This document shows positions 18,438 to 52,862 of a DNA stretch of 64,000 nt, one piece after another. This DNA is from Micavibrio aeruginosavorus ARL-13 (GTDB taxonomy: Bacteria; Pseudomonadota; Alphaproteobacteria; Micavibrionales; Micavibrionaceae), in the NCBI RefSeq assembly GCF_000226315.1, contig NC_016026.1, positions 744,001 to 808,000 on the forward strand. The letters are read 5' to 3'. Made by a program: the position numbers and the translations under genes. The notes beneath the pieces were generated by a model that searched no databases, was not told the DNA's origin, and saw nothing but the letters and a program-made list of their open reading frames with translations. Positions within the stretch are counted from its first letter, which is position 1, and every line of letters begins with the position of its first letter.

Positions 18438-18505
18438 GTCATTGCCCGGTTTATCCGGGCAATCCATGGGCTGGTATGGATCACCCGGATAAACCGGGTG
18501 ATGAC
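18438..18505. repeat. paired-hairpin palindromic element
   Basis: 68 bp, starting GTC and ending GAC. Hairpins ATTGCCCGG/CCGGGCAAT and TCACCCGG/CCGGGTGA face each other across a linker that starts CCATGGGCTGG and ends GTATGGA. Stem sequences differ from other copies but pairing is kept, as expected if structure is what is conserved. Confidence 0.8.
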
Positions 18506-19715: not shown

Positions 19716-19796
19716 TCATTCCGGCGCAGGCCGGAATCTTTATCCATTGTGTCTCGGCTCTCATGGCAAGAAGATTCCGGCCTGCGCCGGAATGAC
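19716..19796. repeat. paired-hairpin palindromic element
   Basis: 81 bp. Hairpins ATTCCGGC/GCCGGAAT (left) and ATTCCGGC/GCCGGAAT (right) around a longer linker than usual. It ends GAC; the left end begins TC rather than GTC. Confidence 0.75.
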
Positions 19797-22011: not shown

Positions 22012-22037
22012 GTCACTCCCGCTTTCGCGGGAGTGAC
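22012..22037. repeat. single hairpin of the palindromic family
   Basis: Perfect 11-bp stem GTCACTCCCGC/GCGGGAGTGAC with a TTTC loop. Confidence 0.75.
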
Positions 22038-22050
22038 GATATATAGAGGG

Positions 22051-22092
22051 TGAAAACCACAAATGGACACGAATTCACACGAATATTCGTTT
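22051..22092. repeat. dispersed CACGAAT-type repeat
   Basis: AAACCACAAATGGACACGAA followed by further CACGAAT units, ending just before the next hairpin. Confidence 0.5.
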
Positions 22093-22094
22093 CC

Positions 22095-22120
22095 GTCATA
22101 CCGGCTTTCGCCGGTATGAC
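22095..22120. repeat. single hairpin of the palindromic family
   Basis: Perfect 11-bp stem GTCATACCGGC/GCCGGTATGAC with a TTTC loop. Confidence 0.75.
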
Positions 22121-27602: not shown

Positions 27603-27670
27603 GTCATTCCGGCGAAAGCCGGAATCTTCCAGCCATAAGGGATGAAGACCCCGGCTTTCGCCGGGGTGAC
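27603..27670. repeat. paired-hairpin palindromic element
   Basis: 68 bp, GTC to GAC. Hairpins ATTCCGGC/GCCGGAAT and ACCCCGGC/GCCGGGGT around a linker containing CCATAAGGGATGAAG. Confidence 0.85.
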
Positions 27671-32498: not shown

Positions 32499-32564
32499 GT
32501 CATACCGGCGCAGGCCGGTATCCATAGGATAGAACGTATGGACCCCGGCCTTCGCCGGGGTGAC
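32499..32564. repeat. paired-hairpin element with long-element linker sequence
   Basis: 66 bp, GTC to GAC. After the left hairpin the linker starts CCATAGGAT, and it ends GTATGGA before the right hairpin. These are the same sequences that lie just inside the two ends of the GIY-YIG-bearing element at 50828-51203. This copy looks like that element with the gene removed. Confidence 0.85.
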
Positions 32565-38108: not shown

Positions 38109-38176
38109 GTCACCCCGGCGAAGGCCGGAGTCTTCGTCCATTATGGCTGGAAGATTCCGGCTTTCGCCGGGATGAC
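38109..38176. repeat. paired-hairpin palindromic element
   Basis: 68 bp, GTC to GAC. Hairpins CCCCGGC/GCCGGAG (imperfect) and TTCCGGC/GCCGGGA around a linker with CCATTATGGCTGGAAG, nearly the same linker as in the copies at 41059 and 52795. Confidence 0.8.
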
Positions 38177-39081: not shown

Positions 39082-39107
39082 GTCATCCCGGCCTTCGCCG
39101 GGGTGAC
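39082..39107. repeat. single hairpin of the palindromic family
   Basis: GTCATCCCGGC/GCCGGGGTGAC (one G-T mismatch) with a CTTC loop, just past the htpG stop. Confidence 0.7.
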
Positions 39108-41058: not shown

Positions 41059-41126
41059 GTCATCCCGGCGAAGGCCGGGATCTTTTTCCATTATGGCCAC
41101 AAGATCCCGGCCTTCGCCGGGATGAC
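41059..41126. repeat. paired-hairpin palindromic element
   Basis: 68 bp, GTC to GAC. Both hairpins are ATCCCGGC/GCCGGGAT, with loops GAAG and CTTC. The whole element is close to a perfect inverted repeat around CCATTATGG. Confidence 0.9.
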
Positions 41127-42410: not shown

Positions 42411-42496
42411 GTCATTCCGAGCGCAAGAGAGGAATCTCATCTCGTGCGGACCTTATGAAGAGGAGATCCCTCGTCGCTTCGCTCTGTCGGGATGAC
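42411..42496. repeat. variant paired-hairpin repeat
   Basis: 86 bp, GTC to GAC like the main family, but with different stems (ATTCCGAGCGCAAGAGAGGAATCT; right arm AGATCCCTCG...CGGGATGAC). It resembles a repeat type known from many unrelated bacteria. Only one copy is seen in the window. Confidence 0.55.
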
Positions 42497-50827: not shown

Positions 50828-51203
50828 GTCATTCCCGCGAAGGCGGGAATCCATAGGATCCTGCGGCGCGTGCGTGTTGTTAAAGTGTGTCATACAAATC
50901 TGTCCAATCTGGATTACTCTTCTGGATTAAGTCTATTTTCCAGCTCCTGTTCCACTTTTTAACGCGTTTCTCTCGCAAAATCGCGTTTTCGGGATCATCG
51001 TACACCTCGAAATAGACAAGGCTGTCGACGTCGTATTGTTTTGTAAATCCCTCAAGCGTCTTACCCTTATGTTCTACCACCCGCCGCTTCAGATCAGATG
51101 TAACGCCGACGTAAAGTGTTCCCACTTTATCGCTGGCGAGAATATAAAAATAATACTGCTTCATATTCAACACCGTATGGATTCCCGCTTTCGCGGGAAT
51201 GAC
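50828..51203. mobile_element. palindrome-flanked element carrying a GIY-YIG gene
   Basis: 376 bp between dxs and ispA. The two ends are 28-bp inverted repeats with a single mismatch (in the loop), each a perfect 8-bp hairpin ATTCCCGC/GCGGGAAT, beginning GTC and ending GAC. Inside the ends are CCATA sequences. The gene for a GIY-YIG protein fills most of the interior. The ends match the paired-hairpin elements found in at least eight other places in the window. No target duplication is obvious. Confidence 0.7.
50880..51164 (-). CDS. GIY-YIG family nuclease (UPF0213-like)
   Basis: 94 residues from the ATG at 51164, with GTG at 51173 as an alternative. YFYIL...[15 protein letters not shown] (Tyr7, Tyr18, Arg27/28, His32) and [10 protein letters not shown] (Glu65) carry the catalytic residues of the GIY-YIG nuclease fold; the ending [11 protein letters not shown] is typical of the small UPF0213 proteins. 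It probably cleaves or nicks DNA. The longer dxs start would overlap its 3' end by 14 bp. It is enclosed by inverted palindromic ends. Confidence 0.9.
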
Positions 51204-52794: not shown

Positions 52795-52862
52795 GTCATC
52801 CCGGCGAAAGCCGGGATCTTTTTCCGTTATGGCTGGAAGACCCCGGCCTTCGCCGGGGTGAC
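52795..52862. repeat. paired-hairpin palindromic element
   Basis: 68 bp, GTC to GAC. Hairpins ATCCCGGC/GCCGGGAT and ACCCCGGC/GCCGGGGT around CCGTTATGGCTGGAAG. Confidence 0.9.

Follow-up and report, generated by a model that had tools for sequence, protein, structure and literature searches.

A small GIY-YIG nuclease gene between CGTC-type REP hairpins in Micavibrio aeruginosavorus, and the pairing of this gene family with such repeats across bacteria

The DNA analysed here, a stretch of 64,000 nucleotides from Micavibrio aeruginosavorus ARL-13 referred to as the window (positions are counted from its first letter), carries a complete REP-bounded GIY-YIG unit of 376 bp at 50828..51203, between the start of the gene that we take to be dxs and the end of the one that we take to be ispA; these names, like sufC, sufD, gcvH and gcvPA below, were recognised from translated sequence. 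The unit ends in two outward-facing 26-base hairpins, tagged (C/T)GTC, which enclose one gene with a single hairpin on each side. Outer hairpin 1 (50828..50853, + strand) is composed of GTC, an 8-bp stem, a GAAG loop and CCA, and outer hairpin 2 (51178..51203, − strand), inverted relative to the first, of GTC, an 8-bp stem, a GAAA loop and CCA. The gene between them (50880..51164, − strand) encodes a GIY-YIG nuclease of 94 amino acids. The original prediction had described two 28-bp inverted-repeat ends with one mismatch, each a hairpin, around one small GIY-YIG nuclease gene, and this description was confirmed: the coordinates are exact, the ends are 96.4% identical over 28 bp, each end folds alone (−8.9 and −9.0 kcal/mol; z = −4.19 and −4.85), and PF01541 is the sole Pfam domain found in the protein (57.4 bits with a cut-off of 22.6; E 1.9e-15).

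The GIY-YIG catalytic set comprises two tyrosines, an arginine, a glutamate and an asparagine. Residues Y7, Y18, G20, R28, E65 and N84 of the window protein are invariant in 40/40 aligned sequences. Structure search with the AlphaFold model (pLDDT 92) returned Slx1 (Z 7.2), BH0048 (Z 6.9), I-TevI (Z 6.0) and UvrC (Z 5.3), scores that are middling by the tool's own grading, and by sequence the PDB entries BH0048 and EF2693 (UPF0213) match the protein, with UvrC matching weakly beside other weak rows. By its domain, conserved residues and fold, the protein belongs to the GIY-YIG nuclease superfamily. It has its fold in common with UPF0213/YhbQ, UvrC, I-TevI and Slx1, none of which, to our knowledge, is a partner of palindromic repeats. 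No NCBIfam model matched it at E 0.001, and the family had no match in 50,697 phage records at E 1e-5. Comparison with the orthologs of a congener (G002) gave dN/dS of 0.12 for the window gene and 0.03 for a paralog (L003), which show purifying selection on both ortholog pairs. The alternative that the window gene is a RAYT/TnpA-REP was rejected, as Pfam gives PF01541 only and the Y1 transposase domain PF01797 has 0 matches in this genome.

Hairpins of the unit's class recur in the window as five gene-less pairs, three solo palindromes and one single hairpin. The REPIN-like pair at 32499..32564 has inner TAGGAT and CGTATGG in common with the gene-bearing unit; on re-reading, it was indeed seen to keep CCATAGGAT and GTATGGA, the sequences just inside the ends of the long copy, as predicted. 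The other four pairs belong to a CTT-tailed subclass (27603..27670; 38109..38176, with one stem mismatch per hairpin; 41059..41126; 52795..52862). Solo palindromes of the form GTC...GAC lie at 22012..22037 (11-bp stem; pattern scan and folding), 22095..22120 (pattern scan) and 39082..39107 (one mismatch), and the single GTC hairpin at 19771..19796 (− strand; pattern scan). The expected eight or more further two-hairpin sites are reached only by counting the solos and the single hairpin, the pairs of this class being five. Two additional gene-less pairs represent other families, one with a 9-bp stem (18438..18505), as found around the sufC-sufD paralog (L004), and one of the GAGCG...GAGG type (42411..42496). 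The solos within 22012-22120 are both perfect, stand about 60 bp apart and carry GTC at both ends of each; possibly they are collapsed pairs.

Over the 2,481,983-base genome a strict hairpin pattern matched 77 times and the reversed control 0 times, which excludes chance. Reading 25 gene-less pairs in full (20 from the genome and five in the window) revealed C (29) or T (21) outside GTC at 50/50 ends, so that GTAG-tagged REPs could be rejected: these hairpins begin with GTC and their tag is YGTC throughout. CGTC-tagged REPs have been found in organisms of five phyla, and the accessible part of the report names Micavibrio aeruginosavorus as a host of family CGTC-1 (PMC3733652). CGTC-1 and window hairpins are alike in the CGTC/TGTC tag, an 8-bp stem beginning AT, a 4-nt loop and a CCA tail, and both occur in many copies, mostly as head-to-head pairs (PMC3733652). 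By these features the palindromes are CGTC REPs, with CGTC-1 as the closest family. Di Nocera et al. (2013, PMC3733652) concluded that such REPs 'apparently lack a dedicated transposase', and in the accessible text of that article no enzyme is associated with them and the term GIY-YIG does not occur, whereas here a GIY-YIG nuclease lies alongside.

A PF01541 search of the genome matched six places, four of which are genes of about 94-97 amino acids, namely the window gene, L001, L003 and L004. A fifth (L005) is taken for UvrC, judged from its length, and the sixth (L006, G000:C1:1129544-1129633) is a decayed, REP-free GIY-YIG fragment directly downstream of a tRNA-like sequence; GTC palindromes were found around neither. 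All four small genes (4/4), on the other hand, are enclosed by GTC palindromes, which belong to three sequence families: an 8-bp stem with a 4-nt loop around the window unit and L001, a long bulged stem (GTCATCCCGGAAA...TTATCCGGGAT; 15 pattern matches genome-wide, 4 of these at L003) around L003, and a 9-bp stem with a 5-nt loop around L004. Different GIY-YIG paralogs thus go with different hairpin families. The original refuting condition, that GIY-YIG genes elsewhere in the genome lack these ends, was not borne out: every other small gene has GTC palindromes around it. The ends do differ between paralogs. Its picture of a palindromic element that encloses the gene also needs amendment: L001 and L004 have a complete outward REP pair on either side, i.e., they lie between two pairs and not inside one, and at L003 an outward pair precedes the gene and two palindromes that face each other follow it, the G002 ortholog (L088) having one palindrome upstream and two downstream.

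To place the association in a wider range of bacteria, loci were collected with a profile (A1) of the four small proteins of this genome, taking the best 80 of 450 loci from named genomes and 30 loci in 19 close genomes, this one included; the resulting 110 loci contain two that were fetched twice (L017/L089 and L075/L104). GTC palindromes were about 26-fold denser near the gene (190 in 54 kb) than far from it (90 in 656 kb). A scan free of any assumption on the tag found 206 perfect hairpins with stems of at least 8 bp in the 58 kb within 250 bp of the gene, with GTC at 177 ends and TGG at 154, compared with 228 hairpins in 652 kb farther off and GTC at 72 ends. Among the 78 named-genome loci with enough flank (from the best 80 of 450), a GTC palindrome within 250 bp was present on both sides in 44, on one in 26 and on neither in 8; the corresponding numbers for the 30 close-relative loci were 12, 3 and 15. 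The typical unit has one hairpin about 20 bp ahead of the start codon and another about 13 bp past the stop, and such units occur in Alphaproteobacteria, Thermodesulfobacteriota, Planctomycetota, Nitrospirota, Zixibacteria, Omnitrophota, Patescibacteria and others. In a second look at 28 loci, chosen mostly from those that lack a clear GTC hairpin on one or both sides, an inverted repeat exceeded the locus's own shuffles in 16, frequently as another GTCAT...ATC palindrome, and in 12 there was none.

Among 192 evenly drawn alphaproteobacterial genomes, 64 match a second profile (A2) at E 1e-12 or better and 57 at 90 bits or more, the definition of a strong hit. At the 100 strong loci used (101 lie outside this genome; one lacked flank), typed GTC palindromes within 200 bp stood on both sides in 30, on one side in 32 and on neither in 38; 66 had an inverted repeat that exceeds the 95% level obtained for unrelated flank pairs, and 14 had neither a typed palindrome nor such a repeat. 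The 38/100 loci with no typed palindrome and the 15/30 close-relative loci with none within 250 bp count against the element reading, and some of the latter have other palindromes. The same 38 loci would suit the view that the gene is a passenger, an unrelated small ORF that survives in REP-rich intergenic DNA or uses REPs as terminators, as would its small size and the abundance of REPs in intergenic DNA. We nevertheless hold this view to be scarcely credible: the frequency of GTC palindromes drops within about 400 bp, from 93/199 gene-adjacent windows to 6/196 windows 410-620 bp off; with 450-bp flanks they occur in 99/199 flanks of GIY-YIG genes and 1/59 flanks of Y1 (RAYT-type) transposase domains (p = 1e-13; control of 30 loci among the matches listed in the same genome set, with flanks measured from the domain match); two ortholog pairs are under purifying selection; and the protein sequence tracks the REP type across genomes, as described below. 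Eight weak GIY-YIG matches had been intended as negative controls and were dropped in favour of the Y1 loci, since 7/8 have an inverted repeat above the null.

Gene and repeat also co-occur at the level of whole genomes. The CGTC-1 pattern is present in 30/192 genomes, and a strong GIY-YIG hit in 10/11 of those with at least 10 copies compared with 47/181 of the others (p = 2.5e-5), the sole exception among the 11 being G107 with 12 copies. Y1 transposases occur in 44/192 genomes but in 2/11 of those with at least 10 CGTC-1 copies. G107, which has no gene, and the 47/181 genomes that have the gene and fewer than 10 copies are further points against the element reading; the latter may hold other REP families. 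Taken together, GIY-YIG genes of this family and YGTC REPs form a real and specific pair, found widely but not everywhere.

The correspondence extends to particular residues of the protein. After removal of L017 and L075, 217 loci were available, of which 176 have a legible EKxxK[70][71]xRx[75]K motif, 41 have no readable motif and 66 have no typed palindrome; the long-bulge, GAGCG and TTGCGAGG types were recognised by regular expressions composed after examples had been seen. Proteins with K, E, A or D at position 70 and W at 71 and 75 mostly lie beside hairpins with a 4-nt loop (4-nt versus 5-nt loops, KW 51 versus 4 and EW 10 versus 0), and 5-nt loops predominate beside proteins that have R, H or S at 70 or Y at 71 (RW 4 versus 11, plus 3 long-bulge; HW 2 versus 7; KY 0 versus 6). 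K or R at position 75 goes, when the palindromes are typed, with GAGCG...GAGG or TTGCGAGG forms. Residues 70, 71 and 75 thus go with the loop type. For a broader comparison, 140 proteins of 75 residues or more, free of stops and with a typed flank, were reduced to 129 at 85% identity, and the nearest protein from another genome had the same REP type in 98/129 cases (500 shuffles: mean 52, maximum 69). Mean protein identity was higher between proteins of the same type in different genomes (0.578) than between those of different types in the same genome (0.538). On a protein tree the five REP types required 23 changes compared with 50 for shuffled labels, and 0/200 shuffles scored as low, in a tree with few columns and many open forks where the 4-nt and 5-nt types each change many times. 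Protein sequence therefore predicts the surrounding palindrome, also among paralogs in one genome, and we conclude that the GIY-YIG family is the cognate nuclease of the CGTC/YGTC REPs.

We then considered whether units and pairs differ between related genomes. The ispA-dxs unit is present in this genome and in congener G002 (2,458,610 bases), which was not among the 11 relatives searched. In 10 of these 11 relatives dxs and ispA are close together (they are apart in G010), and a profile search detected no GIY-YIG match in the dxs-ispA gaps of the 11 genomes, some of which are drafts. The gap is about 280-370 bp shorter than in the window in G001, G003, G006, G007, G008 and G012, and longer in G004, G005, G009 and G011. 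The other refuting condition, a gene fixed at this locus in all relatives, was not borne out either, since ten of these genomes have the two genes close and no GIY-YIG match between them; the claim that the position looks like an insertion stands. G005 has a small GIY-YIG gene just past ispA.

Flank searches located four other syntenic sites. The sufC-sufD gene of this genome stands out against G002, in which sufC and sufD adjoin, as a clean insert of about 500 bp, and the gcvH-gcvPA gene is likewise missing from G002; conversely, one G002 GIY-YIG gene is missing from this genome, and the site of another holds a decayed end and a gene-less pair here. Six of the seven gene-less pairs of the window (27603..27670, 38109..38176, 41059..41126, 52795..52862, 18438..18505 and 42411..42496) have no counterpart at the syntenic G002 site, and the site of the seventh (32499..32564) carries a different GTC pair; the solo at 39082..39107 is missing from the G002 sequence in synteny with it. 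A site that holds a unit or a gene-less pair in one genome can thus lack it in a close relative. A classical insertion sequence or MITE would have terminal inverted repeats and a short target-site duplication; the unit has inverted ends. Most empty-site junctions are not clean, spacers of roughly 10-25 bp being replaced. The proposed comparison of empty and filled sites yielded filled, gene-less and empty sites, and no target-site duplication was seen at the junctions compared, in sequences only about 90% identical where small duplications could be eroded. The junctions and the lack of a duplication count against the element reading.

These sites bear on a homing explanation, in which gene-less REP pairs are cut by the nuclease and repair then copies the gene into them, as with intron GIY-YIG homing endonucleases. 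The window gene does look inserted in a REP pair, with inner TAGGAT and CGTA common to 32499-32564, and at one Sphingobium site (below) some plasmids have the unit and two have a solo palindrome. In G002, however, no palindrome stands at the sufC-sufD and gcvH-gcvPA sites that are filled here, so that the ends probably arrived with the gene; moreover, 2/4 genes lie between two complete pairs and not inside one, and Pfam shows no separate DNA-binding domain in this protein of 94 residues. We consider homing improbable. Assignment to the GIY-YIG homing endonuclease class was rejected on similar grounds, the gene being intergenic, 94 aa long and of a single Pfam domain, and the empty sites having no palindrome.

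At that site of related Sphingobium plasmids seven carry the unit, and in one of the seven, TomTYG73 (L296), the gene has a deletion of one base relative to sister plasmids. Two others have a solo palindrome, GTC-ACCCCGGG-TCAAG-CCCGGGGT-GAC in TomTYG64 and a variant in TomTYG74; TomTYG72 has no GTC palindrome and TomTYG65 has a diverged hairpin of another type. The alignment covers four of the seven filled plasmids, the remaining three being 100% identical over the locus to an aligned one, and four of five gene-less ones, the fifth record being more distant. The TomTYG64 solo is the exact product expected of a deletion between the CCCCGGG stretches of both ends, and the site as a whole is compatible with either gene gain or gene loss. 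Two gene-less Shinella records gave no useful alignment to the filled site. Three records filed as plasmids (NZ_CP119142.1, NZ_CP119140.1 and CP090106.1; 2.2 and 3.7 Mb) look like chromosomes. Among genomes with several genes, a single same-genome pair exceeds 80% protein identity, which also counts against the element reading. The proteins of this pair, in G088, are 99% identical, and the two copies are on separate contigs, set among arrays of the palindrome that goes with them. Three genomes have a small GIY-YIG gene near homologous DNA of the suf region, at different offsets (L087, L091 and L106), as if inserted independently.

The best reading of these site comparisons, as far as sequences can tell, is that gene and REPs form a mobile, RAYT-like system. 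RAYT/TnpA-REP genes are likewise flanked by their own palindromes, the GTAG REPs and REPINs (e.g. PMC2817692, PMC3116915), with many gene-less pairs elsewhere (PMC3733652). The two systems differ in fold and tag, HUH tyrosine and GTAG in RAYTs and GIY-YIG and YGTC here. Cognate pairing, presence/absence sites and the lack of a Y1 transposase match in this genome strengthen the analogy. The earlier proposal, that the protein mobilises or maintains the palindromes as RAYTs do, is partly supported, the cutting and moving being the inferred part: the GIY-YIG enzyme likely nicks and moves the palindromes, and its family stands as the foremost candidate for the machinery by which these hairpins spread. 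We consider it fairly probable that the unit is a minimal REP-bounded element, ordered as YGTC-hairpin, 94-aa GIY-YIG gene and hairpin-GACR, whose enzyme nicks and spreads REPs. The REP would fold when DNA is single-stranded, in the lagging-strand template or in DNA taken up; the enzyme would read its loop and stem via a helix around residues 70-75 and nick at or beside YGTC, in the manner of RAYTs (TnpA-REP) on GTAG REPs, though with a different fold. If paired ends are nicked and rejoined, this could then spread gene-less pairs in trans and, occasionally, the gene-bearing unit, and deletion between the two ends of a unit would leave a solo palindrome.

A different role is suggested by Neisseria, whose dRS3 repeats have the form ATTCCC(N8)GGGAAT and number about 700 copies per genome (PMC3898611). 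In N. gonorrhoeae, a protein 51.8% identical to that of the window and with the same KKW motif is encoded among dRS3 repeats that read GTC-ATTCCC...GGGAAT, the type of the window hairpins. Its gene is presumably ssn; Ssn, in work said to have appeared in Nature Communications in 2025, is reportedly a GIY-YIG nuclease of Neisseria that cleaves a repeated sequence in single-stranded DNA, modulates transformation and has thousands of homologs with matching sequences. Ssn and the window protein are both small GIY-YIG proteins, with the Neisseria homolog among repeats of the same type, and the nuclease-palindrome pairing is probably already known, at least partly, through Ssn. A literature search whose scope did not include the Ssn work returned no paper tying GIY-YIG proteins to REPs, and in the accessible text of a 2006 survey of GIY-YIG nucleases 'palindrom' and 'inverted' do not occur (PMC1564403). 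The present work adds the reading as a mobile element, the match between residues and hairpins, and the polymorphic sites.

By this precedent, the nuclease could be a site-specific single-stranded DNA nuclease that tunes recombination or uptake of foreign DNA, the palindromes being address labels spread otherwise or by recombination. The gonococcal relative among dRS3 repeats and the role reported for Ssn speak for it. We nonetheless find it rather unlikely, though deserving of weight, as the gene lies directly inside the repeats in many lineages, each paralog has its own repeat family, repeat and gene co-occur in genomes, and the presence of gene-less pairs differs between congeners; the first three observations are more simply understood if the nuclease helps the repeat persist.

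Returning to the element reading, a broader proposal may be advanced tentatively as a real possibility, namely a class of mobile DNA in many phyla, REP-bounded and about 375 bp long, with a GIY-YIG protein of about 95 residues as its sole protein; the enzyme would recognise its own YGTC hairpin by loop and stem and move gene-less pairs in trans, and a further GIY-YIG clade would act likewise on TCATCCTGAGC...GTCGAAGGATGA palindromes. If true, this would be the GIY-YIG counterpart of the HUH-based RAYT-REPIN system, with one of the smallest transposase-like enzymes, and, if the enzyme moves REPs, the RAYT-REPIN way of life would have arisen twice, on the basis of unrelated folds. With a cognate nuclease for each hairpin family, the origin and persistence of CGTC REPs become directly testable, and the protein-to-hairpin correspondence would provide many small nucleases with predictable hairpin targets.

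A more distant GIY-YIG group was met among the eight weak matches mentioned above. Six of the seven with an inverted repeat (L276-L279, L281 and L282; 50-58 bits to A2) are enclosed by variants of another palindrome class, TCATCCTGAGC...TCGAAGGATGA or TCATCCTGAGC...TCGAAGG, one of which begins GTCATCC; the GTC tag is found in L281 alone. This group and its palindromes suggest a second nuclease-palindrome pairing.
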